Shown here: positions 3,901 through 64,000 of the stretch, in pieces
How positions within the stretch are numbered: position 1 is the first letter of the stretch
Layout: each line of letters begins with the position of its first letter
Source of the DNA: Bryum argenteum
Lineage: Eukaryota > Streptophyta > Bryopsida > Bryales > Bryaceae
Reading direction: 5' to 3'
DNA length: 64,000 bases
Assembly: GCA_037043015.1 (NCBI GenBank)
Contig: CM073322.1
Location: 33,563,364-33,627,363 of the forward strand
Notes under the pieces: generated by a model
Told to the model about the DNA's origin: nothing
Seen by the model: only the letters and a program-made list of their open reading frames with translations
Database searches by the model: none
Translations under genes and position numbers: made by a program

Positions 3901-5681
3901 CCGGCTGTCACGCCCAGAGAACACAATCGGCTCCAGACCTCCATCTAACTCAGGAAGAGCAACCTGGAGCGCGACCTGGATGGGGTGCAATCCTAAGGAG
4001 CTGCCCAACCACTCTTCGGTAGTTTGGAACACCAAAGGCAGAGCAACCAAGTATGGAACATCAAGCTTCGACAATGCTTCGATGGCCTTGGGGTGATCCT
4101 GGCTCGCAGGGCCTCCAACCAACGCGAAACCAGTCAATGAAACCACCGACTGCACCAATGACTTCTTGGTGATGGGGTTGTAGAAAAATCTGTCCACAGG
4201 GCCCGAGAAATCTAGACCACCTGCAAGACATCAATCAATCTCCTTCTTGTTAGAATCAAATGGATGATGGGGGAATCAAAAGACAGTGTGCAGAGCTCAT
4301 ATTATTTTGTGCTGAGAGTGTCACCTGCAAAGATGGGCACGACCTTGGCGCCCCTGGCCTCCATCTCCATGATCACGGCAGCGTAATGACCTTCGTCACC
4401 GGTCACAATGTGGCTCCGCTGCAAGACAATTCCGACAATCGGGGCGTTGGGGTCCTTCAGGGCGTCATTGGCGTCACGCCTGGTATCGTACCAGTTCAGA
4501 TACTCCTTGATGTCATCGTACATCTGAGGAGCCATGGGATGCCAAATTCCGGTGTCCAGGAACACAACAGGGTCATCGAACTTCATATTCGCCTTCGACA
4601 ACGAGGGCACGTAGGCCTGGGAGATCATGACGAGGAAGTTCTCGATGTTCTCCGGTGAGCCTCCGAGCCAGAACTGCAGACTCATCATGAAGTTCCTCGC
4701 ATCCTGAGCCTTGTCGGTGGGCAAGTACTTCAACACCTTGGGCAGCGTGCGGATGAGCTTCAACATGCCTTCCTCAAAATTGCCCACATTCTCCTTCCTC
4801 TTACGCCTCATGAACTGCGCAATGGCACTCTTGGACTGCCCCAATTGCGACATGGAGAATGTACCAAGCTTGTTCAAACGCATGACCTCGGGCATGGAAG
4901 GGAACACCACGACCGCGTCCAACCTGTCCCTGTTCGCCTCTACAACATCCTTCACCTTCTGGGCGAGCTCCTCAACGAAAATGAGCGATCCGATAAACAC
5001 ATTGGCATCGGCAACGTCCTTCTTGAAAGTCTCGAAATTGTCCTTGTCACGGAGCTCCTCGACCAGGTAACCCACGACCTCGACGCGGACCTCCTTGCGC
5101 GTTCTGTTGATGTTCCTCACAGCCGCGGACAGCGACGATTGATACTGCGCTTCCAGCACCACGTACACCACCTTGACGACGGGCACGCCGGGCCTCGACT
5201 CCGGCACGATGCGTCTCACCTCCGGGCGAGTCTGGGTGAACATGCCACCGCCGCCACCACCCATCATCGCCTTCGTGGTGATTCTCTGCGCCTTCCTCAC
5301 ACCCTGGGCAACCGGGGCTGATACCGAAGCTCCATGGAGCTCAGACTACAATGCCAATCAAAAATCCAACATCAAATTCCATCCCCCAATCAATGCAAAC
5401 ACAAACGTATCAGTCCGAAACCTCACCTTGCCGAGCTTGCTGACATCGCTCACTTGCTTAATTCCGTCAAATGTGGGTAACAGACCACCCAAACCAGCTG
5501 TCAAAAACAACAAACACCACCCTCGTGTTAACACAATGTGACTCAATCGGAATGCGAAATCTCGGAATGGCTGCATGCACTGACCTCGGCATTGGAGGCG
5601 CGCGGCAGGCCGCGTGACAACGGGAGTCACGGCGCAGGACGACGACGTCACGGTGGCCGAGAATGGAGACACGGCCGCCAT
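986..5681 (-). CDS. CHLH: Magnesium chelatase H subunit, plastid (6 exons)
   Basis: This is the large porphyrin-binding subunit of Mg-chelatase. With CHLI and CHLD it inserts Mg2+ into protoporphyrin IX in the plastid, the first committed step of chlorophyll synthesis; it is also known as GUN5. Exons on the minus strand: 5585-5681, 5427-5497, 4325-5303, 3897-4220, 1296-3814, 986-1207. They join in frame to 1403 codons plus stop, close to the ~1380 of Arabidopsis. All introns are GT-AG. I chose ATG 5681, which opens a Ser/Thr/Ala-rich plastid transit peptide (starts [10 protein letters not shown]); a GTG two codons upstream is not needed. The mature part begins near [13 protein letters not shown] and follows the plant family throughout, for example [50 protein letters not shown], and ends in EGIDR. 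I see no frameshift or lost residue. Identification is by protein similarity recalled from the family. Confidence 0.97.
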
Positions 5682-16980: not shown

Positions 16981-19900
16981 ATGGCAGAGCATGAAATAGA
17001 GCCAACAGCCAAAAGGCGGTATGTTTATTTATTTTTGATGACGACAGAGCTCATGCACAGTTGCTGATGCAGTTCATATGTACTCTAGTCCTTTGATATC
17101 CAAGTGTTCGCAGTTGGTGGGCCGAGATTTGTATTGCTAAAATGTCAAGTCACTAGCTGCTGAAGATTGTGATTCTTACATGTGATTCTTCGATTAGTAA
17201 TGTGTGGTGTTGATTTGTGCAGACGACTTCCTCAGCCCCTTCCCAAGCACATCATATTTTTAAGTCACAGCGGGAAAGAGAAAGCATTTGCTGAACAACT
17301 GTGCGAGGATTTAAATGGGATGAATCATTATCCTTTTTTCGATCAAGATACAGACAGTTTACCAAAGGGAGAGAGCTTTCCTTCTTTGATTTTCTCAGCT
17401 GCAGAACAGTGCTTGTTGGCAGTGGTCTTGCTGTCAAAAGGATATTTGAGTTCGAAATGGCCCATGCTGGAGCTGAGCACCTTCGTGAAGTCCAAGAAGG
17501 GGAAAAATCCAAATCTGAAACTGTTCCCCCTCTTCTATAAGCTGTCGCCGAGTGACCTCTCTGCCGAACAAGTGGAGACGAAGTGGAAGGAGTTCTGGAA
17601 GAAGTTGGTGGAGGAGGATAAAGTATCGGCCGAGGAGATTGCCTCATGGAGTGATGCTGTGCGAGAGTTGCGGGTGTGTAACGGCATGGAGTTTAGCAAG
17701 TATGGGACTTCGGAAGTAAAGTACAGGGCAGCCGTTGTGGAGGAGATCTGTAACAACGTGCCTCCAATGATGAAGTATAAGACTGACGACATTCGAGGAT
17801 ATGAACGCCTTTGTGAGGTATGTTGGAGGCGATTACTGAACAGAATAGTATTTGTAACTTGAAGATCTTAAAATGATAGCACTTGAAGCTTTGAACGCCT
17901 TTAAGCTTGGTGTATGTTGGATCTCTTACAGATAACGTCAAGGATGTTCGAGGAGGGAACATCTGAGGAGATCACTTGTAGGGAAGGATGTTGGTATCTA
18001 GGATTATATGGGCTTGGTGGGGTGGGGAAATCTACCCTTTGTAAAGCTATGTGCAGTTATTTCCAAGAGATGTATGGAATGAGGGTATGTCATGTAGAGC
18101 TGCCAAGCAATGCAGAGGAGCTGTCAAGCGCTGCAAGAAAGGATCAATTTTCAAGATTAAAATCTGTAATACAAGAGTTGGCTAGATCTGGCAAAAGGAT
18201 TATAGACAACATCCACTCAGAATCTCAGGTTTGAACTTTCAGATCTACTCATGGTCTTTGAATGAATTGCACTATGCGGAGGATAATTAAACGGGTGATA
18301 CATGTTATGATACATGATTCCTGATGGAAGGAGAGCTAATCTGCTATATGAATTTGGTTGTTTGTTGTATAGGGACTGGAATGGTTACAAAATCGATTGA
18401 GAAGCCATCCACCAGTATTCCTTGCCGTGGATAATGTTGGAGACTCTGAGAGCTCCCGAGATGAAGCACGAGGATTAGTGAAGACTATACTTGCAAGTGG
18501 TAGTAAGGTGATGGTTACATCGAGGAGTCGAGCGATTTTGGAATCCATATTTTGTGAGGAAAAGTATTGTAAGCCCATATCAAGGTTGGAAGCACATGAA
18601 GCGAGAGAGCTATTTCTCTCAGTGGCTGCTCCAAAGAAATTATCATGCCTGCTACAATCATCCGAGGAGAAGATTGTAGAAGCGTGTCTTACACAATGTC
18701 TATTTGCAGAAGATGGGTATGTCATGCAACAATACCATCCTCTTATCCTAAGGGCACTAGGGAGCTACTTCCATGACGTGGGTGAAGATAATATCATGAA
18801 TTGGCGAGAACATATATTGGTTGAGAACAAATTACAAGGATTAAGAGAATCCAAGCATGTAAAAGATATTTTGGGTTTGAACTACTCTTCATTGGATGAC
18901 TCGACAAAATTGATATTTTTGGATGTGGCATTGTTGATGAATGGAAATGGTAGAAAGCTCATTGAGGGAGTAAGTTTTAGGGAGACATCAAATAATCACA
19001 AGTGGCGCATATCTTTTATTGCCACATTGCATGGATTATCTCGACTTTCTGTGGAAAAGAAGGTTAGTAACTTACAACCTTTTTTGGATGTTTGACATTC
19101 TTGTGGGTGTCCAAGAGGGTGTGTTTCTTGTTATTTGATTTTGAAAAGTTTGAAGCATAGAAATGGTTAGTAGAATTTGATAGTTTCATGATGCTATTTT
19201 TGGGCAGGTGAAGGAATTACAACGGAAATCTCTAATTTACGAGTCAAGTCGAACTTTGGGAATGCATGACCTGTATATAGAGTTTGCCAAGTTATTGGTG
19301 AAGGAAGGTTGTAAAGAAAGAGAGTGGTGGGTAAGTTTGAAAAAATGGGCAACAGGAATCAACATTGGATTGGCGAGGAGATTGCACTTTGAGGGGGACC
19401 TGTGGAAACAGCAGAAGATTTTCTGTAATTTTCAGCAACTACAACAATGTCGGAGATTAGAGTGCCTTGTGTTGATTTGTTGCCATGCCCCAGAAAATTC
19501 TAGTTTTGATTTGGGGCGCTTGAAGAGCCTTCGTGTATTGATCTTACGTAATGTAGCAGGCATGGTGGAGATTGTGTGTAATTGTGAAGAAGAAGGTGAT
19601 GAAACGAATCTTCAAGAACTTCAAATTGTATCCATATATGGAGGTGCGCTAGTGCGGATTCCGTTTATAACACATTGTTATAATCTCAAGTCTCTAAAGT
19701 TAGAGTACGTGGGAAAGCAGGTGGTTGATTATATCTATTCTCCAGAAACCAACATATTTGAGAAATTGAAGGCATTAAAAGATTTACATCTTATGTACTC
19801 CAATTGGACATGGCATGTGCATTCGGAAGAAATTCTGAGGAATGCATCGAGTCTGCAATCCCTATCCCTCAAGAAAGTGGAATTGCATTTGGATACCTGG

Positions 19901-20277
19901 TTAGCATATTCCGAAAGTATGGGGTTGGAAGTGCATGTGGATAGCTCACCATTTTGGCAAGCTACTAGGATACTTGATGTAAGCGGACTTGGGCGCTTGA
20001 CTTCTTTTGTCTGCCCTCTCTCTTTGTATGACCCAGTTAGGCTTTGAACACCTATCTCCGTATTGCTCCCAAGTTTTGGGGTTCAAAGGAGTAGACCGAC
20101 TATCCCATCTGACTACGTTGGACTTACAAGGTTATTTCAACCTTTGCGTATTGCCAAACCTTGACATACTGCCCAATTTACGAGAGATTTGTATACGCAA
20201 ATGTTGTTTTCTTGAAGATAATATGCATTTTTTGAAGAGATATCAAGAATTCAAAAAACATCACATCTACTACAAGG
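16981..20277 (+). pseudogene. TIR-NBS-LRR gene, frameshifted in LRR (TNL-1)
   Basis: An intracellular immune-receptor type protein. Exons: 16981-17018, 17223-17817, 17932-18228, 18373-19062, 19208-~20277, all GT-AG and in frame. ATG 16981 opens exon 1 (MAEHEIEPTAKRR). Exon 2 is a TIR domain (IIFLSHSGKEKAF ... KWPMLELSTFV). Exon 3 has the P-loop GLGGVGKST. Exon 4 has a kinase-2-like FLAVDNVGD and an RNBS-B-like KVMVTSRSR. Exon 5 has an MHD-type MHDLYIEF followed by leucine-rich repeats. Compared with its twin at 26.7-30.2 kb, the LRR frame is broken by one extra T in the TTTT run at 20005-20008. The first frame stops at 20045-20047, while the next frame continues the LRR to a GT donor after 20277. 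The final exon was not found. It could be a recent pseudogene, a shortened receptor or a sequencing error. Confidence 0.85.
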
Positions 20278-25500: not shown

Positions 25501-26690
25501 GTAAGGAGTTTGAAACTGTGTTTTGATACACACATAGAACCTTGACAAGTTAGGTACAAGATCTTATGCTTACATACTTGAGATTACTTCAGAAGTTGAA
25601 AATATTCATCTTGCATTGTAAGAAGGTGGTCTTGAGGACTTTTAGCGGTTTTGAGGGCTATCGACTTTAGGGGTTAATAAAAGTGCAAATTTTAGTTTGA
25701 GTAATTTGTAGTGGAGTAGTCCACACCTTGAAATTACTTGATGTATGGTTAGAAAAAGTGGAAGATAAGACCAAGTAGAATCATTATTATTAGGCTCTCG
25801 TGCAATTCGTTATGAATTTTTGAAGCTTCAGTAAAGTAGTGCCCTGAAGTAAGACCCTAAAATATTCATCATCAATACATGGAGAACTGGACTTGGAAAG
25901 TGTTGTGTACCTTTGGTTTGGTAGGTCTAGTAAGTCATCATTGATACAGTTCGAATTTTGAGTATTCGCCCTTAATTAGCGTCTTCTCACATCACGATGA
26001 CCTCGTGACTCGTGACGGATTCTACATGCTAAACAACAATTTGTACTTTCTGGTTGATAAGAAGGACAACCTGTCCGATATTCTTTTGTGTGGTTGCAAA
26101 TGTCACAATGCAACTCCAATTGACATGGTCCATGCAATCTCATGTGACGTTGAGTGCAAAGACCGCAAGACACCTCATTGCAAAATGGTTGATGGCACTG
26201 CACAAATTCAAAACACTTAGAAGATTAATTGTGCAATCTCACATACAATACTCTCAAGGACTTTTAAGTCTCATGCTTACTTGATTTTGATTTGCATAAC
26301 TGATTTTATTTTGATATGCATAGCTTATTTTGAGATTTGTATATATACATATATCTTTTTTGCCCAAGAACCCTCAAAAATATAAATATTACCCGGGTTT
26401 ATTTGTAGGGTCAATTATAGCATTGTCCACATGCTTGTATGTAGGAATAAATTGCATGTGACGGTCAACAAGTAAAGCCTTTCCTACCCCCAAATTTTTT
26501 TTTTCTTACAACAAACTAAAGGACTAAAATCCTCCCTTTAGGATTGTAAATAATAATACGAGGCAAAAAATACCATGAATTGGAACATTAGGTAAAGATA
26601 GGGAGTATTTAATTTATTTTGGTCATCAAAATATTTCCTACACTAATATTCCTTCACTGCACGTGATGTACCAAGCCTCCTATAAAGTCA
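22550..26690. other. AT-rich spacer, no gene supported
   Basis: Mostly AT-rich DNA without recognisable genes. A less AT-rich island at 24.2-25.0 kb holds a possible short two-exon gene, noted separately. A small cysteine-rich open frame (26005-26220 plus) has no family I recognise. The 16-base AAAGACACATCAAGTT occurs twice, near 22690 and 23152. Confidence 0.4.
24226..24525 (-). CDS. Possible small gene, unrecognised
   Basis: Weak evidence. A minus-strand ATG near 24525 opens MAETVSFFCCFVHPQ and runs into a good GT donor (CAG|GTACAT near 24476). Further down, an AG acceptor near 24308 is followed by an open frame ending in SFSMSRITAEYDIFLHSYMNRR and TAA at 24226-24228. The joined phase does not match directly, so a middle exon would be needed. 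I recognise no family. The overlapping plus-strand frame at 24599-24922 is an alternative. Confidence 0.15.
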
Positions 26691-27375
26691 CCCCCAAAGT
26701 AAATCAAAGACACATACCTCATGGTAAGTGTGATGCTTAATCTCTTGGTGATTCTTGAAAAGTTGTCTTGCTTGATCTTTTGGTAATTCTCCAAGTCCAC
26801 AACATCCATTGATACAAATCTCTTGAAAATTGGGCAATATGGCAAGGTTTGGTAGTGTTGAAAGCCTTCGACATCCTTCGAGGTCTAATGTAGTCAATCG
26901 AGATAAATGATCTATGCCTTCAAACTTCCAAACACTAGAGCAATTCAACTCCAATGTGGTTAATGTAGATAGTTGTTCCAACCCCTTTATCTCAAACTTC
27001 AAAGGTAAACGAAGTGAAAGGGCTTGCAAAGAAGGTAAGCATCCAAGTGCACTTGTGTCAAATATTCTATCACGTGCACTTGTGAAACCGAGGAAACTCA
27101 TATGAATAAGCAAATGCTTGAGGGAGTGCAGACGTGAAACACTTTTACACAAAGACCCCAATGAGCGGTCCAAGAAGTAACGAAGATGTAGGTGTTCCAA
27201 AGTCATAGGCATCTCTAGTAGTTCTGATTCGATAGAATCAGCTAAACTTTCCTCTCTCACCTCTACGGATAGTGACTTGAGATTACAACAATTTGTCACA
27301 AACGGAATGCTCTTCAAATTTTTCCCAGAGAGCTGGACAAAACGAAGTTCCGGAAGACACTCTTCATCACCCTCC

Positions 27376-27435
27376 CAATTCAACCACTTCCAATTCAACC
27401 ACTTCCAATTCAACCACTTCCGAGTCAACGACTTC
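27376..27435 (-). repeat. 15-bp tandem repeat inside TNL-2 LRR exon
   Basis: Three exact 15-bp units (CAATTCAACCACTTC on the plus strand) and a fourth diverged unit encode a repeated Lys-Trp-Leu-Asn-Trp on the minus strand. TNL-1 lacks the array, so it arose after the duplication. Confidence 0.9.
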
Positions 27436-28051
27436 TGACTCCATCGGATCTCCACCATGCCATCCACTTTCTTCAAGATCAACACACGAAGGCTCTTCAG
27501 GCACCTTGTATCAAGAGTAAAATTCTCAGGAGTTTGACAACCGACCATCACAAGGCATTCTAACTTCTCACATTGCTCCAATTGCTTAGCATTATGGAAG
27601 ATCCTCCCTTTTCCACCATCGAAGCACACTCTCTTCATCAAACCAAGATTCATTCCAGCTGACCAATTCTTGGAATGCACCCACCAGTCCCTTTCTTTGC
27701 TACCTGTCTTCAACACCAATGACTGTGCAAACTCTATATAGAGGTCATGCATTTCCAGAGTAGGACTTCCCTCGTAAACAAGAGACTTCCGCTGTAATTC
27801 CCTCACCTGCTCGATATGTTAGCAGCATAAAACTATTAGAATCTAATAGCTTTCTCTATCATTTGAACTTCTCACAAGAAGCAAGTTACAAGCAAGCTTT
27901 GAAATCACTAGCTTGGCATCCCAACTATCATTTCCAGAAAGTATTTTAAAAAAGACACATAGTACTCACCTTTCTCTCTACCTCAAGCGGAAAAATTCCA
28001 TGTAATGTAGCAATAAATGATATTCGCCATTTCGAATCCATCGCTTCTAAA

Positions 28052-28117
28052 TCGGAACCCGCAACATTAATGAAGCTCATCCCGTCGGACCCCGCAATAT
28101 TAATAAAGCTCATCCCG
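28052..28117 (-). repeat. 33-bp in-frame tandem duplication in TNL-2
   Basis: Two 33-bp copies (28052-28084, 28085-28117) encode GMSFIN(I/V)AGSD twice in the NB-ARC region. TNL-1 has no second copy. The frame is kept. Confidence 0.85.
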
Positions 28118-30189
28118 TACGCAGAAGTAAAGCGCACATTCAATAATAAGGCCACATCCAAAAATATCAATTTTGTTGAGTCATCTAATGAATAATAGTT
28201 CTTACCCAGAATATCATACACTAGCTTTGAGTCCCTAGACCCTTGCAGTTTATCTTGAGCTGGTAGGTGGTCTTTCCAATTCATGATATTTTCCTCGTCA
28301 ACATCATAGTAGAAGCTCCCCAATGCTCTTAGAACAAGTGGATGGTATTGTTGTGTGGCATACCCATTTTCCTCAAATTGACATTCTTGAAGACATGCTT
28401 CAACAATCTCGTCCTCACAAGATTCTAACGGACATAATAATCTCTTTGGAGCAGCCACTGAAAGAAACAGCTCTTTAGCTTCATGCGCTTCCAACCTTGA
28501 TATGGGCTTGCAATACTTCTCCGTATGAAATATGGACTTCAAAATCGCTTTACTCCTAGAAGTAACCATCACTTTGCTACCGGTTGCTAGTACTGCCTTC
28601 ACTAACCCTCGTGCTTCGTCCCGAGAGCTCTCAGAATCTCCAACGTTATCCACAGCAAGGAACACTGGTGATTGGCCTCTCAATTGACTTTGTAAGTACT
28701 CCAATCCCTACGTAACAACCCAAATACAACCCAAATAGTAGATTAGCTTTCCTTTACGAATTATCGAGCCACAATATCATAAACTCAAACACAGAATCCG
28801 TGAAACAATTGATAGGTGTAGTAGTTAACAAGGTGAAGTATCCTATATATCCTTATACTAGAAAGCCCACGAGTAGGAGTGATATTCTTTATCTGAGATT
28901 CTGAACCGACCTTGTCTGCAACCCACGTGTCGGTACTAGTCAAACCTTGTATTACAGATTTCAACCTTGAAATCCGATTCTCCTCTGCACTCCGCTCTCC
29001 CTCTACATCACTTGGCAGCTCCACGTGACATACCCTCATACCATACTCTTGAAAATAATTGCACATTGCTTTACAAAGGGTGGATTTCCCCACCCCACCA
29101 AGCCCGTATAATCCCAGATAATAACATCCTGCCGTACAAGTGATGTCCTCAGATGTCTCCTCTTCAAACATTTGTGATGTTATCTGTAAGGATTCCAACA
29201 TACACCAAGCTTAAAGGCGTTCAAAGCTTCAAGTGCTATCATTTCAAGATCTCCAAACTACTGATACTATTCTGTTCAGTGATTGCCTTCTACGTACCTT
29301 ACATAGGCGATCATACCCTCGAATGCCATCAATCTTATACTTCAATACTGGAGGCACGCACTTGCAGATTTCCTCCACCAGGGCTGCCCTGTACTTCACT
29401 TCCGAGTTCCCATAATCGCGAAACACCATGCCGTTACACTTCCGTAACTCTCGCACAGCATCACTCCATGAGGCAATCTCCTCGGCCGATACTTTCCCCT
29501 GCTGCCACAAATTCTTCCAGGACTTCCTCACTTTATCCTGCTGCAGCAACTTCTTCCAGGACTTCGTCCAGTGTGTTTTCACTTTCTCGGCAGAGAGGTC
29601 ACTCGGCGACAGCTTATAGAAGACGGGAAACAGTTTCAATTTAGGATTTTTCCCCTGCTTGGACTTCACGAAGGTGCTCAGCTCCAGCATGGGCCACTTC
29701 GAAGTCAAATATCCTTCTGACAGCACCACGACTGCCAACAAGCATTGTTCTGCGGCTGAGATGATCAGAGAAGGGAACTTCTCTCCCTTTGGTAAGCTGC
29801 TTGGAACTTGATCGAAGAAAGGACAGAGATTCATCCGTTTTAAATCGATACAGAGTTGTTCCACAAAAGCTTTCTCATTCCCGCTATGGCTTATAAATAT
29901 GGTGTGCTTGGGAAGGGGCTGAGGAAGACATCTGCCCACATCAACACCACACATTACTACACGAAGAATGTACGCAGACAATCAAACCACAATCTTCAGC
30001 AACTACTCACTTATCGTTTTTGAGCAGAAAACAACTAACTCTGCATTCTCGGCCTAACTGCATATACTTGAAAACCAGAACACTAGCGTATATATGACCT
30101 GCATAGCAACTCGTGTATGAGCCTTTTCGTCATTATATATGATCAACATACCGCATTTGTTCTGCTGGCTGTATTTCATGCTGTCCAAT

Positions 30190-37952: not shown

Positions 37953-37961
37953 GTTTTCAAC
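37953..37961 (+). repeat. Target-site duplication, left
   Basis: GTTTTCAAC, identical to 48551-48559. Confidence 0.88.
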
Positions 37962-38028
37962 GAGGGGTGCTAAGTCTTAAGCCATAAGCAATGAGCAATG
38001 AGCAATGAGCAATAAACTCTTGAGCAGT
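37962..38028 (+). repeat. MULE left terminal inverted repeat
   Basis: A 67-bp terminus, inverted at 48485-48550 with one 1-bp indel. It contains three direct AATGAGC units, possible transposase-binding repeats. Confidence 0.85.
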
Positions 38029-38339
38029 AATGCATAGTATTGTAACCAACTATGGACCTATGACCGTGTAAAATGATTATATTACAAAATGATGTTGAAG
38101 TGTAAGAGCCAAAATTTCATATAGAAATACATTCAAGACAGTAATTATTTGAGAAGGTAGCCTATAACCGTGGTTTGGTATATGGGTTCAATTTTTGAAT
38201 AAGATTGATCAAAATTAGAATTCACATACATTAGTATCACTGTGTATATACACAATCATATATCTATGAAAATCGTGATAAATATAAACATATACTGAAA
38301 TTAATAAGAAATCAAAGCAAAATGTGCACATATGTAATA

Positions 38340-41300
38340 CTACATAGATATGTTGGAGTCGGAACTACCTTCAACTGAAGAAATAGTGAAGGTATTGTCC
38401 TTCTCAGCCTGTATGTCTATGTAACTATGCACTTTAGGATTATAAGTACGTCGCTTCCAAACTAAAGGAGGTGAGGGGGCTTCTGCTAAAGCCATAGCCA
38501 TATCTTGTGCATAACAAGGTAAAGTAAAAGTATCATGGGGACTGGTTAAGAAGGCCTCCGATGAAGCTCTGAAACACAATGTAGTATAAAGTTAGTTATA
38601 TACAAATGAAAAACAAAGAAAAATAAAATAAAAATGACAGCATATACATAAATGCATAAAATTTACAAGTATACAACTTACGCACAAAAGCGAATGGAAC
38701 GCTGTCGCTTTTGAGGAGGCTCTTCAGGTTTGTCAGATACACGAAGTCCCTGGACTTTCTGCTGTGGTGGAGGAGGGTTGCTTAATGGTGCAAGGAGAGC
38801 CTCAAATATGTTGGCGTCACCTTCAAAGGCTGCAATGTGACGTCTAATATTGTAACAAGCACGTACCGAGGCTCCTGAAAACAAAAACCAAAAACATGTA
38901 TAAAAAGATAAAGAAACTGGTTCACCATAAGTTAATAAAAACTGAAGATAAAATAAAGTATCACCTGTAGATGCAAACCAATCTAAAATAATATCTCCAG
39001 GCTTTAAAAGTACTTCAATCAAGCCTTGCATGAATGATAAGTCTTTCTCCCGAGGACCTCTCCATGGAACTGATCCATTTATAAGCTGAGATTCTTCAAA
39101 TCTGAAGTTGAGAATGCAATCACATTTCTCAAGCCTTGTAACAGTTGCAGAGAAATCAGAACTCTCTCGGAATGAAAACCGTGATACAATCGGTCCTCCA
39201 CGGATGTATAGTTTGATGCACAATCGATTGGTCTACAAAAAAAATGAAAGTTGAATAGAGCATTAGTCCTAAGTAGAAGAAGATTGGAAAAAAAAGTATC
39301 GTGAAAGATATACAATATAATACCTTACTTGTCTTGTCCGTTGGAGAAGTAAGGCGAAGATCTTGGACACCCCACCATTCTTTTTTCAAAACAAAGTTGA
39401 ACTCCGAGGCCCACTCCAACAATATCGCTCAGAAATGGTGGAATGAAAGCGAATGAAATAGAAGTAGGGCAAAGATCATCGTGAAGAAATGCATCGCAAA
39501 TGCAAAAATTGACTCTACACAATTTTTGTCTATGTTGTTCCAAGACGGGATAATTGAGGCGGTGAAGAGATAGAAGGGACCTGTAAGCCTTCGTATATGT
39601 CTCATGCTATGAGTAAGTCAATTCCCCTTATGAGGGCAAATTTGAGCTCACTCGACGTGTGCGGCTGCTCCCAACCTTTATTCAAAACAATAAAGTCATA
39701 TATTTCTACAAAGCGGAGAAAAATACTTGAAAAATAAATGAAGTAGAACAAGCACAAGATAGAAGCTTACCACATCTATAAATCTATGAAGTGCTATCCA
39801 ACGAGGATCTCTCCCTTCATCTCCGTTAGCTCCCTGCAAAGTGAGATCTAACATAGACACATTCTGAATGAAGTTGTATACGGAAGTAGATGAAGTATTC
39901 GTGGAAGCACTTGCACCATGAGGCTGCAAGTGTTTCTTCATCTTTTGCAGATGCAGCTGAGTCGCCTGTGTCAAAGTATGAGCACTGTCTTGCGTGCCAT
40001 CAAAATCGTGAGTAGCAGGACCAGACACCTCAGATGGTGTTGGACGAGGAATAGAAGACAATAGGACATTTGCGGAGGAAGCTCTCTTCCTGGTAGGTTG
40101 TGTCTTTCTCTCCTTTGATGGTCATTGAGCAAGTAGATCCGTATCTTCCTCTTCGGCTTCCTCTTCCGTAAGAGGCATGGGAACTCCACCATTGATGTTT
40201 GTCCTCTCATTAACCTCCTCAAGAGGTGTAAATGTAGGAGGACATTCGAGGTACCAACAACCGGCAGCCAAGTGATTGTCGTTGAACTTCTTCTGTTGAG
40301 CAGGTGTGTAGAAGCAAATGGAGGAGGTCTTATCTAGAAATGATGAGAAGTACGCAGGCATGGAATTCTCGCCAATGGCTTTGTTTCCAATGAGCTCCCT
40401 TTTGATGTATCTGAAGAAATTAAAGAGAATACTGAAGTCAATGTACTTGGAGAAATAGTAACATTATTAACTTTGAAATAGATAGAAAAGATAGTATAGA
40501 ACAATAGAATTAATCTTACCTGTATAAAACTCACTGAACAACGGAAGCTGTGCCTGGATACTTTGTAAACTTGGTTTCTTTCTTGTACACAGGTTCTGCT
40601 ATTGGATTAAAAAAAGGCAAGAATGCCTTATCCCATAGTAGGATCCGGTAGGTCTCAACATATTGAGATGGAGTCTTAATTCCACCAGAGGCTTTCCAGT
40701 CAATCGGTTCCAACTTCTCGCGAATTTTTTCAAATCTCGAAGAAGTTGGTCTTCAAGCTGCAAATATCAAAGTACATGTTTCAGTATAAAAGTAAGACAA
40801 TAAAACTATAAAGAATGAAAGTTGAATATAAAAATTACCTCAGCCCAAAAAGATGCCTTGATTATCCACGTTGCAAGTGGAATCTTGGAATCCGGTGTAG
40901 GAAATTTGTACGCTGCACGCATTGTCGGGGGAGCATTCCACCATGTCAACCAGAGTGCTTTGAATTGTGGTTGGACAGGAGTTGTTGCGATTAAACGCAG
41001 TTTGTCAATAGTCATTTCTGGCTTAGAATACAAACTGTAATGTTCGTTTATCTTCAAAAGTAAGAAAAATATATCAGATTTATATTAGGAAATGAAGTTG
41101 ATAGAAGTTCTTAAAAAAAAACGTGGGAAACAAACCAGTGTGAAGAAAGCTTCTCCATTATTTGGATTAGCTACTGCAAGGTACTTATCAAAGTCCTTGT
41201 TTTGAATGGAATCAACAAGGTTGGTTGCAGCTTTTGTCATCATGTCCCAAACTCCCTGAGGATTTTGTTGATCCTTGGGAGTCTTCTCGTAATATTCACG

Positions 41301-43948
41301 AGAAGCTGCATCCGATGCAGCTGCAATCTCTCTCTGCACAGTACAAGTAACTAGTCATGAAATAAAAACTTGAACTTAAGAATTTGAATAGATCTAATGA
41401 AATAGGAGAAAGGTAGAAACTTATACGACAAAGAAAAGCGATGAAGACTTTCTGAGTCAATGGATACCAAGTCGGGATCGTGACATTCCTGTTTTTCGAT
41501 TTCTCACAGGATTTATATTCCTCTTCTGTAAGAAGATTTTTGAAGTCAGTGAGCTTGAGTCCTCCAAAAGATCGGATCCGTTGAAGTCTTGCTGGAAGGC
41601 TCGTCTTTACATGGTCATTTTCAGTGGACCTGCACAAATAGAATGATAATTGATGAAGTAAAAGATACAAAATAATTGTAAGAAAAAACAATTGCAAAGT
41701 AGAAATAAACTTACCAATTGATGTCATTCATTGCATTCAAAACATCTCCAGCATTCTCCCTTGGATCGATAATAAACGTATCAACAGAATAGTGTCAATC
41801 TTGTTCATCTGCATGGTGCATGTTGATGTGTCTCCGCCAAGCTCTGTGGCGATGATTGCCATCCCACACATACAACATCTTACCGTGGAGATCTTGTAGA
41901 TGCACTTGCCTAGAGAGGAGCTCTTCAAACCTCTCATTTGCCTCGATCCAATATGGATCCCATGCCTCCATTTCCTCCTCCGAAATGGCCTTTGATCTAC
42001 CTCTGTAATCATATGCAGAAACATAGAGAACACGGTCGCCCTCACGATAACCATGCACAAACTCATTCTCCAATTTCTGAATCTCGACCTCACTAACCGG
42101 GCGTACTTTTGGCATGGTAATCATGCGACAGAGAGGTACCGGAATTCGAGCTAAAGTCAAGCTCGAAAGAAGAGCACGGCTGTCCTTCTTTTGTGTTTTT
42201 CGGAGAAGTAACTCTCCCTCAAGTACGTTGTTGATTCCATCAGGAAGTTCTGGTTGAGGGAGGACCTCCGTAGGTACAACAGATTCGGCGGGGGGAATGG
42301 CCTCAAGTGTTGACAATGACCTATGAGTTGAACTCACCTGCAAATATAAACTACAGTCAAGAATTGCTCACATATTGAAGGTCCTACTTGCAAAAAATTA
42401 ATTATATAAATGATATTAACATATCAAAGAAGAAACATACATAGCGCACGACAATTGACCCCGAAACTAACAGAAGTTTTTTAGCACTTATAGGGTGCAG
42501 CAAGAGAAGCTTGCTACCCGAATGTTGAGGGCTGCTTACAAGCGGACCAAGAACTAATTCTGCAAAACAGCATTACTTCGTTACAAAAAGGTTTGAAACC
42601 CTATTACGTCGACAGGCCGCGTGCACGCGGACCGTCTCAATGCCCGTCTCAATAACCAGAATGATCGCAATTTGGACGGTCCGCTTGCACGCGGACCGTC
42701 CCGACGTCGATCTGAAAAACTAAAATTTCGCAATTTTGGCAGTCCGCGTGCACGCGGACCGTCCCGGCATCCGTCTCAAAAACCACAATGTTTGCGATTT
42801 CGACAGTCCGCGTGCACGCGGACCATCCCGACGTCGATCTCACAAACCAAAACGTTCGCATTTTATCATTTGGACGAGCCGCGTGCACGCGGACTGTTCC
42901 TACGTCGGTTTGAAACAACATATTATTCGCATTTCGGCAGTCCGCGTGCACGCGGACAGCAACCACATTCGTTTCAAGCATCAATTCCAGCACCAAAACT
43001 CTAACTTTCTTCACTAACCAACATTTTGCGGTGCAAAACAAACATCACTCAAAACGGAGAATTACACTAAACCCTCCAAATTGTGAGGACTGGAGGAAGC
43101 CGAACCACTATCCGCGCACACGCGGACAGGAAATCAGATTTCTAAATTCCCCATTCTACTAAATCCAAAATTGCTAAACAAACTGTAATCCAGAAATCTC
43201 ACCGCTTGAGGTGTTGGAGAAATGATCTCCAGGTCGTCATTACTTTCTTGGACCGTTTCTTCTACCCCATCATGAGCTCCTCGACCTCCTCGACCTCCTC
43301 GTCGTCGACTACCTCGCGCAGCCCTTCCACGACCACCTCGTCCTCTAAGTCCTTCGCCGCCACTGTCAGCAACTCCTCCACTCCTTGCTTCAATCGCCAT
43401 CTCCAGGTTGTTCTCCATCTACAACGAATGCAAACCAGCAAAAAAAGAGCTCAACACACGTACACCAGCAAAAAAAGAGCCCCAAACAAAACTAACAACT
43501 TCCTTGCACAAAAACCTCAAACCCTAATGCCATGACGGCTACTACCCCTTTCAACCCTAAATGTTATTTACTTTACTAACTCCTGAAATTCTCCACTTTC
43601 CTATCTCTTCAAACTAATTTGGATTCAAGTCACTAATACCTTTGATTCGCTCTCGCCATCGCTCTCACCAAGTGACGGTTGATGATCTAAACTCCGCATT
43701 CCAACAAGTCGATACGGCAGCAATGCAGGCGCAACTGATAGAACTTGGGTTTCTTTGAAAAGCTCCACACCGCAATCTTCAAATGTTAAAGCACGAACAC
43801 TATCTACTACATTCTCATCTATACGACTTCTAACCCTTCTTAGCCGTGATTTCAAAAGCTCTCTTCTACTACTAAAGCGGAATACACTCCGCTTTTTTTT
43901 CCTACTCTCGTCTCTCGCTGCCAATAGAGGTGTTCGAATGTCTAGCAT
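38340..43948 (-). pseudogene. ParB-like + DNA-methyltransferase-like gene in MULE
   Basis: A multi-exon gene. Exons read on the minus strand: 43640-43948 (ATG 43948), 43203-43418 (RGG-rich), 41715-42337, 41427-41629, 41136-41333, 40839-41051, 40520-40757, ~39771-40411, uncertain segments ~39330-39720, 38965-39232, 38682-38874, 38340-38568. Borders up to 40411 and from 39232 are good GT-AG sites. Exon 3 has a ParB/sulfiredoxin-type signature, MLYVWDGNHRHRAW. The C-terminal exons read IILDWFASTG joined to GASVRACYNIRRHIAAFEGD, like the SAM-binding motif I and following region of beta-class N4-cytosine/N6-adenine methyltransferases, where motif I lies C-terminal. A catalytic (D/S)PP(Y/W) motif is not clear; IPPF near 39460 is the only candidate. 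In-frame TGA stops at 41795-41797, 40531-40533 and 40122-40124 and shifts near 40735 and 39605 mark it as decayed. Confidence 0.65.
42615..43127. repeat. Array of seven 18-bp CpG palindromes in an intron
   Basis: The core GTCCGCGTGCACGCGGAC is a perfect palindrome. Copies start at 42615, 42679, 42742, 42806, 42877, 42940 and 43110; copies 3, 4 and 6 are exact and the others differ by 1-2 bases. Starts are 64, 63, 64, 71, 63 and 170 bp apart, and the DNA between copies is itself a diverged repeat (CGTC.CGAC/GC and TTCGCA blocks). The array lies wholly in the second intron (42338-43202) of the methyltransferase-like gene. It is strikingly GC- and CpG-rich against its surroundings. Function unknown; it looks like a set of protein-binding or methylation sites. 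Confidence 0.9.
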
Positions 43949-44457
43949 TTGGACTGGTTGGCGATTAGTTTAAACTTCCAGACATATTCTCTTCGAGCTT
44001 CTCTTCTAATACAAATACTTAAATGGTTTTCATTGCCACAACATTTTCATCAATGCGCACGCCACCTCTACCCTTCTAATTTCAAACAACCATAAACGCC
44101 TTCATTGCATTTACGAAACCATATCTTCCACTCTATATAGTACATACCCTTTTGTCATAAAACCAAATATTTTTATTTGATTCTCTTGTTACATGATTAT
44201 AATTCAAATACTCTGTCCGTGCCGTCAATACAACTACCATGATATGTAACATTAATTCTTGGCGACTCTAAAAACGACTGCAATATAATGTCCACTACGT
44301 TATTTTAAAAAACTCACCTACTTTAAGTACGTTAAGATTTTTCTTAATCTTTTTGAATTCTATGTACTCATGCGAACTCCAAGTGGTAGACAATCTATTA
44401 ATACTCAATCTACCTTCTCTCATCATTCTCTTCTAACCCTTCCATGCTCTTCTCAAA
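43949..44457. promoter_or_regulatory. Shared divergent promoter of the MULE genes
   Basis: The only gap (509 bp) between the two divergent start codons of the element. It is AT-rich, with a TATATAG-like sequence near 44136. It should drive both genes, but no element was proven. Confidence 0.4.
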
Positions 44458-47400
44458 ATGGCTTCCTTCTGTCTTCGTGGTGTAGGACTACCTTTTACAG
44501 TCCCTTTAGGTGTAGATGGAAAGGTTATTGTTCGTGAACACATGCTTAAGGCAAAATTTAATTTGCTTCTTGGATCTTTGTTTGTAGAAAAGATTTTGTT
44601 TAATGAGTCCGGTGTTTCGATAGGGACTTTGCTTGAAAACAAAACTACTGATTCCACTGGAGGGTTTTGGATTGTTTCATCTGGCACGTACTCTGTATTC
44701 GGTAGGGAGTTTGAGTCTCAAATGTTACATTCAACAACTTCCTCTGTCCACTTACCCACTTCGGTTTCTGTGAAGATAGAGCCTTCGGACAATATCATCA
44801 CTTTGCTCAGCGACTCCGATGACGAATCATTTCCTACGGTACATTCTTCTGTACCTACTAACAATCTTTCTTCCTGTAGAATTCCTACAATACAACTCCC
44901 ATCGAAGCCTACTTCTTCTCATCCTTCTTCTTTGTCTAGTGGGCGTCCACCCTTACATCCTGTTCTCTCCTCAAGTGCAATCACTATGATGGAAGCGTTG
45001 GTTCTAACCTCCAAAAGAAGACGATCCAAATCTGAACTTAGTAGTGTAGATTTCAATAACATTCGAGTCGAAGAAGTTAGTTATTTGCCACAACGTTATG
45101 ATGGGAACGTAGTCTTTATCCTACCCTCATTGCCTCAAGGAGTTCCTCAAACATATGGTAAAGGTTTAGATGGGATGGACAAGCAACACGACGGACATGC
45201 ATGGTGCACAACAAGGATAACTCACATTCAGAATGATTACAACATATCCTTTCGTCGATCCTCCTGCGTTGGTGAGCTACAATGCTCTAATGAAGCTTGT
45301 GAGTACATGATGCGGAACTCAGGGCAATGCAATACTACGCAATGGACTGGCCAGACACCAACACGATTTGAAGTTGGACGAAATCCGCCTCCAAAGTCAA
45401 CGTTGCAATGCAAGGTCTGCCATACTCCTCCTGTTTGCCTTCAGACATGCAACGCTGTAATCTTCTATGTAACATCACCTACAATAGAGAGTCGCGCATG
45501 TATCCACTTAGGCGAGCATAAGCACCCTGTGGCTGATGGAATTTGTAGGGAGACAATAGATTTAGTATATCGGTGCGTGGCAAAAGAGGTCTCTAGAACG
45601 CCCAACGCTACGAACTCTGCTATAATGATTGGTACAAGTCGAGCGTTTTTAGAAAACTTTCTTTTCAAAAGCCCCACACCTGGAGAAAAGCGACCATCTT
45701 TAGAAAGTGTTATGGATAAGTATGAAACACTAGCCTCTCCCAATTGCAGAAATTATATTGTAGGTGCAAATAGACTTGTTCGAAGTGATCGTGGGCCTAT
45801 TGATAGCATACAAGCTTTGAAAGTGAATAATCCTTTCATTTTTGTTCACAAGAATAGATTCCTTGGCCAAACAAAAGACAAAGTTTTCATCTTTAAGATG
45901 TCAGTTCAACTTGAAGGTAGTGGTTTTGACCTTGTGAAGCGCATGCAACATGGAGGAGACTTACAAGATTCGTGGGTCATGCTTGATCATGTTAAGCGAC
46001 TAAATGATTGGACGACTATAGGTTGCCATGTCTATGACAACAAATATTGCAAGGTCATGACAATTGCATGTTGTGACATGCAATCAGAAGATGCTAGTGC
46101 TCAAATTCTATTTTGGCAGAATTTAAACTCTGTGATGCATGAGCACGGTGTTTCGAGTATCAACTTCGAAGGCTTCATGGCAGATACTGCTCAAGCTAAT
46201 TGGATTGCAGTGAGGAAGGTTTATGGAGGAGGGGACGGCAATACTCCTATGAAAGACAAGGAGCGAACCTGTCTTTATCATTGGTCTGCCAACTTGGATA
46301 AGTATACGCAGAAGTATATCAAACCATCCATGCAAGCTCATCATAAGCAACTATGTCAAGCCTATAAGAATGCAAAGAGTTTTGAGGAAGCTGAAACTCA
46401 ATTCCACGTCATCAAAAATTGGTGGTTATCATCCGGTGCAGCTACTGAAGATGGTGTGGCACACTTACAAGAGTGGTTTGGATTCTGGCACTTTTGATAC
46501 AAGCAGTGGGGTGGCGAATTTCAAATGGTGAGTTTAGTATATAGATGGTAATGAAATTATAGCTCTTGATTCATACAACTATATTATTTTTTCTTGAATG
46601 AAGTGTACTCATTTGATTTACAAAACACTTTCTTTTTTGCAGGACCTAACTCTGTAAGAGATAGCAAAGGTTCCTACATGCAACCTTGCAGAGACTGTCC
46701 ATAGTACAATGAAGAGGGCATCAGGAAACAAGATGACTTGTCCTTATGAGGCCACCATACACGATATGATTTGTGCTTTCATGCAGATAACAAACTACAG
46801 ATCGTGGGTGAAGGGTGGAAAAGGAGGGACTGGACCAAGCGACACAGCCCTAAAATTGAAGGCAGCAATGCGAAGTGGTGATCCCAATCTTTTGGATGAA
46901 GTAATGAAGACTATTCCAGGTGCCGAAGACTTGCCCCTTACAAACTATGGCTTGGAAGGAGCAGAGATTTTTGGCTCTACAAAGAGGAAATCTGACTTAC
47001 CTCCTGGATCAGAGTTTGACTCTCATCGTCCGGATAAGGTAAATTACTCGGTACCTCATCCTTCTTCACGGGCAACACGAGCACGTATTGAAGAGTCTCT
47101 GAATATACCGTTATATGAGGTGACCCATGTGACGGGTGTCCATGAGAGTGACTGTGATCCTAACCAATGGCACATAGCTCGCACCAATCCAAAATCCCGG
47201 GTGAAATGTCAAGCTATGCAGGTTGCTTCTGGAAAGGCATGTGAGGCACAAATTAACAAGGGCCGCCAAGCAACTTGCGCTCCAACTTATCGTGGCCTGA
47301 AGAAAGCTTACGGAAAAGACACCTTGGAGCTTACGGAGTTTTGGTTCTGTCCTGATGATATTAAGCGATGCGTTATGGGAAAAAAGAATTTTTTTGTAAA

Positions 47401-48003
47401 AGACTGGCCGCCAGTACCTATGGTGTGGCCTATCCAGATTGGTACTAACTTATCCCGGGAGGAACTTCTTGCACTAGAGGATGCTTTGGATTCCAACTAG
47501 AAGCGTGAAAAGCCTTGTCACCAAGGAATCTTTTCAAAACCATTCCTAATCTTCCGATTCCTCTCTCTGGGATTCATATTCCCGAGAATCTTGATAGTCA
47601 TGCGCCAACTAGGTATGGAAAACTTGTTCGTCGAAGTTCTCGGGCTCCCGATCTTCGATCACGAAACAAGTGGGAGAGTTCGGCTCTCATGGATGGATAT
47701 AGCATTGTTGGAGTCACAATTGTCCCTCACCCCGGATATGGAGCGGTTATTTCTCTTGCGGCTCCAACAGATAATGTCTACCGTGTCTCCATCAAGAAAT
47801 TTTCCATATTGTACTTGTCCGACTTCACTAGGATGAGTACAACTTCTCTCGGAAAGAAAGGGAAATGGGTGAATTGCAAGCATTTATATTATCTTCTTAG
47901 GTATTCATCGCAAACTCGACTACACAAAGGATATCTTCATGCATGCACCAACTTGGAGCTATCGGGAGGTCATCCACCTACTACAATCAGCTCAGATAGT
48001 TGA
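44458..48003 (+). pseudogene. MULE transposase with GCM-type zinc finger
   Basis: Exon 1 runs 44458-46527 and exon 2 from 46643, joined at GT-AG. The N-terminal half has a Cys/His cluster of the WRKY-GCM1 kind (SSCVGELQCSNEACEYM ... CKVCHTPPVC ... ACIHLGEHKHPV, about residues 265-365). Next comes a MULE-type DDE core: D in MLDHVKRLNDW, D in FMADTAQANW, and the CxxH of RTCLYHWSANLDKY. After exon 2 (NLAETVHSTMKRASGNK) the C-terminus ends in a SWIM-like LGKKGKWVNCKHLYYLL. In-frame stops: TGA 46495-46497, TAA near 46655 and TAG 47498-47500. One shift lies near 47513, and two mutually cancelling indels near 47803-47820 destroy the PYCTCP cysteines. It cannot make full-length transposase. Upstream neighbour: the methyltransferase-like gene, divergent. 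Confidence 0.82.
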
Positions 48004-48292
48004 TTCTACCAATTGATTTTATTTTCATACATAGTGTTACTTTAATATATGTATCTTTTATAGAATATAAATATTCAATTATCACATGTTTTTGTCAACT
48101 ACAGTATTCTATTTGATTGAGAGACATGTTTTAGGACTCCTATGCTTTATAAATAATAGTCTATACTACTTACTCATGTTTCAAGAAATAAAACATATAT
48201 GTATAGTCGTATCTTAAGGTCCTCTTTTATTGACTTTGAATCTACAATTTCTTTACACGGGTTTTTTTTTCTTGAGGCTCTTTATGTTGAAT

Positions 48293-48324
48293 CTCTATAA
48301 TATGGCACCTCTATAATATGGCAC
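48293..48324 (+). repeat. 16-bp direct repeat, 2 copies
   Basis: CTCTATAATATGGCAC occurs twice in tandem between the transposase gene and the right terminal repeat. Confidence 0.8.
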
Positions 48325-48484
48325 CTAAACCCGTGGCATGACTTGTACATGATGCATTGGTTCACGGATTTAGGCTACTATTCCCACGGTAATAGGCTAA
48401 CAACCACACATGATATTTTGGAAAGTAGCCATAGAACCTATTTCATTTCCGAATATTTCGTAAATTTTGTCTTATACCAAGCTC

Positions 48485-48550
48485 ACCGCTCAAGAGTTTC
48501 TGCTAACCGCTCAATGCTCATTGCTCATGGCTCATGACCTAGCTTCACTC
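48485..48550 (-). repeat. MULE right terminal inverted repeat
   Basis: Inverse partner of 37962-38028. Confidence 0.85.
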
Positions 48551-48559
48551 GTTTTCAAC
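48551..48559 (+). repeat. Target-site duplication, right
   Basis: GTTTTCAAC, identical to 37953-37961. Confidence 0.88.
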
Positions 48560-62116: not shown

Positions 62117-63301
62117 CTAGGCAGCGGCAACAGGCACTTGCAAGTTATTTCTCGCGATGGTGACGCCAACGCAAGCATCGACAAAATCAGAGTCCGCGAA
62201 GTCCTCAGAGAAGATCTGCAGCCGGTCACCGAGGCCTTGCTTGAAAACCTCAGCCAGGAACAGACGGGCGTAGCCGCGGATGCGGTTGGTCACCGGCTTC
62301 ACGCACAGCACCGGGCCCGTCACCTGCGGCGTGGCCGTATTCTCCACGCGGTAGAAGTAGGTCCGCTGATCGTTCGGCGGCTGCTTCTGCAAGTTGGTTA
62401 TGTTGCCGGAAAATTTCGTCATCGGCAAGTCCGTGTCAATCCAGTTGTCCTTCAAGAAACCCGAGCTCCACAGCGGCGAGCCCGGTGATGGCGCCGCCAT
62501 TTGCCTGCAGTGCAATGCATCTCACATTTAGCCAAATGTGCAATCAGGCCTGAATATGAATCTTAACGTCATCGAGCTTATGACTCTTAAGCGTATCGAA
62601 AGTTTAAGGAACGCGTAATAATATGAAGGCTGGAATGAATTTGCATGAGACATAGATGTGTTTAAGTTTTTATTATTGAAAGGTGGATTTGGTGTCAGAT
62701 TTTTGGAGCAGTAAAGTGCTTGCCTGGGTTTCCAGATGCAGAACACGCGCTTGGGGAGGAGTTCGATGAGCGGGCGGTCGAAGAAGCTGGCGTCCTGGGG
62801 GATGAGATGATCCCCGAGCTGCTCAATGAGCCAGACATCGAACGCGGGCGGGTCTTGGTAGCTAAACTCCGTACGAATCTCAAGGATGACGATTTCGGAT
62901 TTGGTTTCTGCGAGGAAGCGCTTGAGGTCGTTGATGACGACGTCCACGAGATAGGATTTAAGAATCCCGTGGCACACTTTGCGGTCTTGTTGCACGCGAA
63001 TGTCCAGCACGCGGATGCCGATGCAGAGCTGGTCGTACACGGACAGTTTCTGGCATTGCGCGAATGGGCGCGAGATGCCGGGCAAGCCGATCTTGTTGGT
63101 TGCGGAGTCGTGGGTCCCCGGCCACACCACGTCACGCACCTTCAAGTTCTGCAGCGGCAGCGTTGACATCCATTCCTTCGGATTGATGCAATGGAAATCG
63201 CTCCCCGGAAACGTCACCCCTCCCTCGTCCACGCTCACTTTCTCCTTCAGCTGCCGCTTCTCCCCTTTCACCAGCTTCTCCTTCGACACTTGCGCCCCCA
63301 T
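62117..63301 (-). CDS. PI-PLC X-domain protein, 2 exons
   Basis: Exons 62724-63301 and 62117-62504 on the minus strand join in frame (321 codons plus stop) through a GC-AG intron (AG|GCAAGC ... TGCAG|GC). ATG 63301 starts MGAQVSKEKLVK; Gly2 followed by small and basic residues is a plausible N-myristoylation site. An in-frame extension upstream exists but runs into what looks like an acceptor (TTGCAG near 63315), suggesting a leader intron. The X domain of bacterial-type phosphatidylinositol phospholipase C is clear: VRDVVWPGTHDSATNKIG (His64), LCIGIRVLDIRV, VCHGILKS (His111) and IVILEIR. Both histidines that act as acid/base catalysts in the family are present. No Y or C2 domain exists, so this is the PLCXD-like group, not the canonical plant PLC. 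Substrate unknown. Confidence 0.9.
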
Positions 63302-64000
63302 TGCACAATTCTGCAACACCCCACTCAATCAGATCCATACCGACAACACTCAAAAAAACTAGCTTTCTCCCCGAAATCCTCTTTCCATATTTTTGCTCCA
63401 AGAGAAAAACGAAGAACACTCACCCAAGTCGTCTACTTGAAAGAACTCTTGCACTTCGAAATGCCGAGGTTGAAAGTGGCAACAAGCCAAGTGAGGACTC
63501 CGTCACGCCTCGAACTGAACTGTGGACGACTCACCGTATCCCCAGAAAGCTTCCAAGTGCAGAAAATCAGCAAAGCCGGCCACCCGTCCCCACCAATGCT
63601 CGTCGATAAGAGAAAAAAATACGACGCACGAACTGCTGAATCTATCAAGCTCACGAGAGTACGAGAGTATCAAACTCATTACAAGTAAGGGAGTAGTTCA
63701 GAGTGGTGTCACTTTCCTCGTGCTCGTTTCATCGCTTAATCTATATATCACTGTACGATTGTGCGCATCTTTCCAGCGCATGCCTCACTGGCTGTTTTCG
63801 ATGGCAATAATATAAGAATTGGTACAGGCCACTTCGACTGCAGCTCGAATAGTAATAGCCAAGTGGCCAGTTTGAATATAGGACCTGACAACCAGGTGGC
63901 GGATAATCCCACTTTTCAGTTGTAGGTGGCAAGATGAGAGAGCGGCAGTTGGTAGTGTTCAGCGTCCACGTGGAAAGATAAATTTCAGTCCCTCCAAGCA
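63302..64000. promoter_or_regulatory. PLCX gene 5' flank; G-box at right edge
   Basis: The 5' flank of the minus-strand PLCX gene, probably including a leader intron ending near 63315. Open frames here show no domain. A palindromic G-box-like TCCACGTGGA lies at 63965-63974, typical of bZIP/bHLH binding sites; whether it serves this gene or one beyond the window is unknown. Confidence 0.35.

Follow-up and report, generated by a model that had tools for sequence, protein, structure and literature searches.

A decayed two-gene transposon in the moss Bryum argenteum belongs to a high-copy family with a ParB/methyltransferase-like gene and subfamily-private palindrome arrays

We analysed a stretch of 64,000 nucleotides from the moss Bryum argenteum (GenBank assembly GCA_037043015.1, contig CM073322.1, positions 33,563,364 to 33,627,363 of the forward strand), referred to here as the window. 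It contains a decayed copy of a high-copy two-gene plant DNA transposon, which spans positions 37962-48550 (10,589 bp). A preliminary description, made from the letters alone, had defined the element by a perfect 9-bp duplication, and this proved correct: the 9-mer GTTTTCAAC flanks the element exactly on the left (37953..37961) and on the right (48551..48559), and these are its sole two plus-strand occurrences in the window. The terminal inverted repeats, described as ~67 bp long, were recovered, but the alignment is imperfect and extends over ~78 bp (left, 37962..38040, about 79 bp, plus strand; right, 48474..48550, minus strand), with a score of 40, whereas none of 400 random pairs scored above 20.5. 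Short tandem repeats of 7 bp lie within both termini (37978-38015 and 48509-48535). Inside, as described, two genes are arranged head to head, a transposase-type open reading frame (ORF) on the plus strand and a gene similar to ParB and DNA methyltransferases (MTases) on the minus strand. Stops interrupt the ParB-like exon and the transposase frame of this copy, and exon e7 of the minus-strand gene is out of frame.

The exons of the minus-strand gene were placed by comparison of copies. The first coding exon (43203..43418), which encodes an RGG-rich N-terminus, was found in 17 of 18 near-copy loci (stop-free in 14 of the 17) and in none of 14 distant loci. Beyond intron 1 lies the ParB-like exon (~42337-41714) with the motif DGNHR and the in-frame stop of the window copy. 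Exons e2-e6 (40230..41628), to which no function is assigned, and exon e10 (38400..38543), a C-terminal tail, were located by tblastn against distant copies. The MTase-like domain continues through exon e7 (39333..39551), the region after motif IV, which itself sits just upstream of this exon, and exon e8 (38963..39217), with motif X (PWRGxREK) and motif I (DWFASTG), and ends in exon e9 (38681..38875). A 638-residue frame at C1:8339029 was considered as an intronless retrocopy and set aside, as by eye it seems to be merely a read-through of short introns. On the plus strand, the first transposase exon (44458..46494), supported by a seven-member alignment, encodes a Cys/His cluster and a DDE-type core (FMADTAQANW, CxxHW). 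Past an in-frame stop and an intron, the transposase continues at about 46673..47497, with further decayed coding sequence to about 48000.

The genome searched comprises 258.8 Mb in 25 contigs. The left-end 139 bp of the element (37962-38100) matched 33 places, two of them in one element, 0.7 kb apart. Compared with the near-copy matches listed, the MTase exon is present at 22 of these places, the ParB-like exon at 20, the transposase at 15 and the full set of three at 14; at the 11 places that lack the MTase exon, the match is never above 85%. Of 1013 candidates for the ParB-like exon, the exon searches scored the best 150. For the MTase exon they scored 150 out of 1170, with 152 matches, of which 150 were listed, and for the transposase 65 out of 1511, which gave 71 matches at 63 distinct places. 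Among the matches listed, 48 of the 71 transposase matches have a partner exon (ParB-like or MTase) divergently upstream, compared to none with a same-strand upstream partner and four with a downstream partner; misses are expected in such a comparison. Degenerate DNA patterns gave a count across the genome: the ParB-like pattern for [FY]V[YWC][DE]GNH[RS] occurs at 484 places and the transposase pattern for FMAD[ST]AQANW at 374, with 0 places for either reversed-pattern control.

The degenerate motifs also allowed a pairing test that is less biased than the exon lists (contig C1, 0-21.4 Mb, within 20 kb, 2000 random shifts). A ParB motif lies divergently upstream of 35 of the 70 transposase-motif places, compared to a mean of 3.2 and a maximum of 10 after shifting. 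Of the other places, six have a same-strand ParB motif, three another placement and 26 none. The two genes of the window element are accordingly not an isolated pair: the genome search proposed in the preliminary description returned other copies in which both genes recur together, and the minus-strand gene was not generally missing from them.

The same architecture was found in a distant copy of 14 kb (C4:6064136-6078197), which carries both genes. It is flanked by a 9-bp duplication that is perfect (GTGCCAACT), and its ends are related to those of the window element. Protein identity to the window copy is 50% in the ParB-like exon and 57-58% in the transposase. GAGCAGC-type repeats occupy its ends where the window termini have the 7-bp tandem repeats. 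Note that the inverted-repeat alignment of this copy runs ~30 bp beyond the duplication at low identity, and that eight of the repeat bases recur once more in the left flank. The duplication was taken as the edge, since at each end it precedes TGCT[A/T]AG by 6 bases, just as in the window.

We next consider selection on the two genes. Ratios of nonsynonymous to synonymous divergence (dN/dS) were calculated by the Nei-Gojobori method; most cross-subfamily pairs were saturated in dS and gave no ratio. For the ParB-like exon, dN/dS was 0.03-0.12 among loci L070-L076 (6 measurable pairs) and had a median of 0.094 (range 0.03-0.37) among loci L027-L038 (53 pairs). Exons e2-e5 gave 0.06-0.10 (9 pairs with dS above 0.3), exons e7-e9 0.07 (L072/L073) and 0.11 (L073/L077), and exons e8 and e9 together 0.04-0.11 (5 pairs with dS above 0.2, several of them near saturation). 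The transposase gave 0.11-0.12 in the 2 of 21 pairs that were measurable. Two sets of values run counter to purifying selection: a tenth, nearly identical e2-e5 pair had a ratio of 0.26 at a dS of 0.02, and exons e7-e9 gave 0.57-0.97 for the pairs L071/L074, L071/L076 and L074/L076. Exon e7 is out of frame in L074 and L076, and for exons e8 and e9 alone the pairs among these three loci gave 0.28-0.49, on 4-7 changes per class. Overall, both genes are under purifying selection. As a separate observation, dS between L072 and L073 is ~1.2-1.5 in e1-e5 compared to 0.25 in e7-e9, a contrast that suggests recombination or conversion between element copies.

These data bear on whether the second gene could be a passenger. 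MULEs (Mutator-like elements) are known to capture genes, which is what speaks for a captured host gene here. Against this, there are hundreds of motif places, the arrangement is the same in diverged subfamilies and dN/dS is near 0.1. We therefore rejected capture on the strength of recurrence across diverged subfamilies, divergence and dN/dS, and regard it as highly improbable. As the preliminary description had supposed, the second gene belongs to the core of the element and is not a chance capture; the MTase exon at 22 of the 33 left-end places, the pairing on contig C1 and the purifying selection all support this.

MULEs are characterised by target-site duplications of ~9 bp and long terminal inverted repeats, and their transposases by a colinear DDE core with CxxH between the second D and the E. 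Both copies examined (the window and the distant C4 copy) have an exact 9-bp duplication and long inverted repeats, of ~78 bp and about 50 bp (counted inward from the duplication in the distant copy), respectively. The Cys/His cluster is common to seven transposase members, as is a core that combines a VKR motif with FMAD[S/T]AQANW and CxxHW. The transposase had been described as that of a MULE, and as a profile match this was not borne out: none of the seven members matched a Pfam transposase model, MULE included, at E values up to 1. A zinc-finger model reached an E value of 6.7 in one member, and a PDB search with the transposase returned no match. The genome has 52 places matching PF10551, none of them within 5 kb of a transposase place among the matches listed. 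When the transposase was aligned by hhalign with the classic MULEs of this genome, FMAD...CxxH fell opposite IIDKD...CHFH, a plausible register in a non-significant alignment (probability 0.7%, E value 0.084). Judged from the duplication length and the ends, with no profile membership, the element is probably MULE-like.

The C-terminal part of the second protein was assigned by profile. A nine-row alignment of the METHYLTRANSFERASE-like domain matched DpnA (7e-6) and CcrM (3e-4) in the PDB. All nine members matched the N6_N4_Mtase profile at E values up to 1 (best 2e-7), and all nine matched a phage DNA methyltransferase family (best 1.3e-8); the window MTase exon alone falls below the curated N6_N4_Mtase cut-off. 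Motifs X and I lie C-terminal to motif IV, and this order (IV-X-I) is that of the beta class. By profile, the C-terminus is thus a beta-class N4/N6 methyltransferase-like domain with an altered motif IV. This agrees with the class given in the preliminary description, and the profile searches did not point away from a methyltransferase fold. Only two places in the genome pass the N6_N4_Mtase cut-off on their own, C4:20498341 (26.8 bits) and C7:9878472 (26.7 bits), both as 150-residue frames. These could be methyltransferase genes of the host, or copies of the element in a better state of preservation.

The register of motif IV was set by the alignment with CcrM, in which DVPENL stands opposite DPPYNL. 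We read the motif in 22 distinct elements, including L075 and leaving out L076, which runs out of frame. It has the form DxP[E/K] in 16 of the 22 (DIPE, DIPK, DAPE, DVPE, DVPK, DLPE), drawn from several lineages. The remaining six read DISE (twice), NIPE, DIHE, YIPR and one with a stop, and are mostly visibly decayed elements. The catalytic form [D/N/S]PP[Y/F/W] was found in none of the 22. Motif I lacks its FxGxG part, and variants such as DWSASTG and DWFASTG stand there instead.

These readings bear on the idea, put forward in the preliminary description, that the transposon brings a working methyltransferase, that is, an N4-cytosine or N6-adenine enzyme marking the element's own DNA, a role also suggested for the algal proteins. 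Motif X, the motif I region and an acidic residue are kept under purifying selection, and algal relatives are described as predicted N4-methylcytosine (4mC) or N6-methyladenine enzymes (PMC12477816), both consistent with such activity. However, methylation is doubtful because motif IV reads DxP[E/K] and never DPP[Y/W/F], and the change in motif I also argues against it. In the bdelloid enzyme N4CMT, the change of SPPY to APPA, which replaces the catalytic Ser and Tyr, removed the ability to add 4mC (PMC8885841). Taken with the altered motif IV, this loss of activity leads us to expect a non-standard or non-catalytic domain. Going by its motifs, the MTase-like domain most likely does not rely on standard N4/N6 catalysis, and we consider a working methyltransferase quite unlikely. 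A comparable case is METTL14, an MT-A70-type pseudo-methyltransferase that serves as a subunit of an RNA complex. It likewise keeps the methyltransferase fold with an altered catalytic motif, but belongs to another class.

The non-coding part of the element contains a feature absent from the preliminary description. In intron 1 of the minus-strand gene, a tandem array found with TRF and by pattern search (42611..42957) consists of six 18-bp palindromes, GTCCGCGTGCACGCGGAC and variants (motif A), ~64 bp apart. The pattern search added a seventh, outlying palindrome with 3 mismatches (43110..43127), so that the intron has seven sites at up to 3 mismatches. When up to 4 mismatches are allowed, motif A is present in 17 of 18 near-copy loci, with 1 to 8 sites per locus. 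The distant C4 copy has a different palindrome, CCCACTGTC-TGCTCC-GACAGTGGG (motif B), repeated nine times in 117-bp units between the genes. Motif B also occurs in L031 and L034, in 53-bp units that share one flank with the 117-bp units and differ in the rest. In the distant-copy type the array may be intronic or intergenic, as exon 1 was not found there. A third group of loci carries the palindrome AGCTTTCGGCACCGAAAGCT or its core (motif C).

Palindromes repeated exactly at least twice were present in 18 of 30 ParB-end loci, compared to 2 of 30 MTase-end loci (both in one element) and 0 of 150 shuffles made from the ParB-end loci; note that some of the loci overlap. Across 92 units of the first type, conservation was 0.87 in the palindrome columns and 0.52 in the flanks, a difference biased by the choice of units by palindrome match. 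Across the genome, motif A in exact form has 18 places, none farther than 1.2 kb from a ParB-like exon of the window subfamily, and each of the 8 places of motif C has a ParB-like exon within 3.2 kb. Motif B has 114 places; among the first 100, 82 have a listed element gene no more than 7 kb away. Reversed controls of the three motifs gave 0 places in the genome. Thus, the palindrome arrays are private to subfamilies and mostly confined to their own elements. The motif B places without a listed element gene nearby form six clusters (C2:15575883, C8:1155479, C8:10946508, C8:17376049, C8:17423897 and C9:13109606), which may represent worn copies, copies that have no genes, or copies not among the matches listed.

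The location and sequence of the palindromes bear on two readings of the second protein. It could be a transposition cofactor, as exemplified by mudrB of maize MuDR, with the palindromes serving as transposase-binding, replication or promoter sites. The transposase has a DNA-binding-like Cys/His cluster of its own, and palindrome class tracks the ParB-like exon poorly between B and C, both of which would fit a cofactor. On the other hand, the two elements that were read over their full length have their sites in intron 1 or in the space between the genes rather than at the termini, and an MTase-like domain is hard to explain in such a role. We consider a cofactor unlikely. The reading that we tentatively prefer, at somewhat less than an even chance, is that the second protein is a self-recognition factor of its transposon. 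ParB proteins bind palindromic sites. The ParB-like part, or another part of the protein, would bind the palindromes in intron 1 or between the genes, and many molecules would load at the array. The loaded protein would alter the chromatin of copies of its own element and thereby keep the two head-to-head genes open to expression. In this reading, the MTase-like domain would bind DNA or S-adenosylmethionine or would serve as a scaffold, with no standard N4/N6 catalysis. Palindrome binding, an anti-silencing or marking role and the lack of catalysis are all steps that we infer.

Several observations weigh against a self-recognition factor. The DGNHR motif named in the preliminary description is present, but profile support for a ParB relationship is weak: a PHROG ParB-like family matched at 0.0018 in 3 of 5 members, Pfam and PDB searches with the ParB-like part gave no match, and ParB_N (PF02195) had 0 matches in the genome, compared to a control found in 10 of 14 genomes. 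The name ParB-like is therefore a weak assignment, taken from the GNHR motif and the weak PHROG match. Several copies of the window subfamily keep only one or two poor motif A sites and L020 has none, and 18 of the 100 motif B places fall in the clusters without a listed element gene. The arrays were read in three subfamilies, leaving out the most abundant (the L071 type). Moreover, a comparison of the ParB-like exons of 14 loci gave identities of at least 92% inside the groups and 86% between B and C, and averages of 49-52% for A against the other groups. As the palindromes of B and C are unrelated at 86% exon identity, the palindrome changed with little change in the exon, and specificity would have to reside elsewhere in the protein or in the transposase.

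An origin of the fusion from viruses or bacteria was considered and rejected. The ParB-like alignment found no relative in the viral contigs or prokaryote genomes searched, the window ParB-like exon had no match in phages, and the transposase had no relative in the viral contigs searched. The MTase alignment gave two matches over 46 residues.

ParB-methyltransferase accessory proteins are already known as a general kind from algal transposons, a precedent missed by the preliminary description. In Sola1-1_Ec32 of Ectocarpus, a gene on the strand opposite the transposase is described as encoding a 1104-residue protein with ParB-like and N4/N6-MTase domains (PMC12477816). The moss gene resembles it, by description, in its opposite-strand position and in the combination of a ParB-like part (weak here) with an N4/N6-MTase-like domain. 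It differs in its plant nuclear host, the 9-bp duplications, a transposase without a Pfam match, the hundreds of motif places, the altered motif IV and the private palindrome arrays.

A likeness of layout alone exists with the VANDAL transposons of Arabidopsis. Their anti-silencing protein VANC is associated with short motifs amplified as noncoding tandem repeats, including in its own intron, and different VANCs use different motifs (PMC5735166). Both systems thus have a second protein, tandem motifs that include its own intron, and motifs that differ from protein to protein. The passages on VANC describe no likeness to ParB or MTases. The motifs here are long palindromes and putative binding sites. 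Retrotransposons of dinoflagellates and charophytes are also reported to carry DNA methyltransferase (DNMT) genes (PMC5890265). They share with the moss element the presence of such a gene on a mobile element, but theirs are C5-cytosine enzymes in retrotransposons, compared to an N4/N6-type domain in a DNA transposon.

Literature searches, mostly at the level of titles beyond the papers cited, found no report of a land-plant transposon with ParB and MTase parts, and the text of a MULE survey (PMC6446971) contains no methyltransferase, moss or Marchantia. As far as the literature was searched, the plant host, the transposase with 9-bp duplications, the copy number, the motif IV altered across lineages and the palindrome arrays are new. 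ParB-methyltransferase-like accessory proteins hence also occur in the nuclear genome of a plant, where they are under selection and found at hundreds of places. The private arrays offer an immediate target for binding tests with the ParB/MTase-like protein, and the altered motif IV is a caution that a 'methyltransferase' in such transposons may not methylate. If the protein does bind its palindromes, it would represent a second solution, beside VANC, by which a transposon singles out its own copies. A broader version of this reading, which we regard as somewhat unlikely, is that a plant transposon lineage independently evolved a VANC-like system, in which a ParB-like loader with a non-catalytic MTase fold would read private palindromes, keep hundreds of copies open and have swapped palindromes between close subfamilies.

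Outside the element, two ORFs named by eye, one like magnesium chelatase H (1278-5345, minus strand) and one like phospholipase C (62528-63328, minus strand), place the window in a plant nuclear genome, and the chelatase-like sequence marks the plant as photosynthetic. The window also holds an inverted pair of related TIR-NBS-LRR-like genes (17173-20047, plus strand; 26688-29981, minus strand; domains named by eye). The inverted repeats of this pair, 440-582 nucleotides long at 79-86% identity, are among the longest found in the window.

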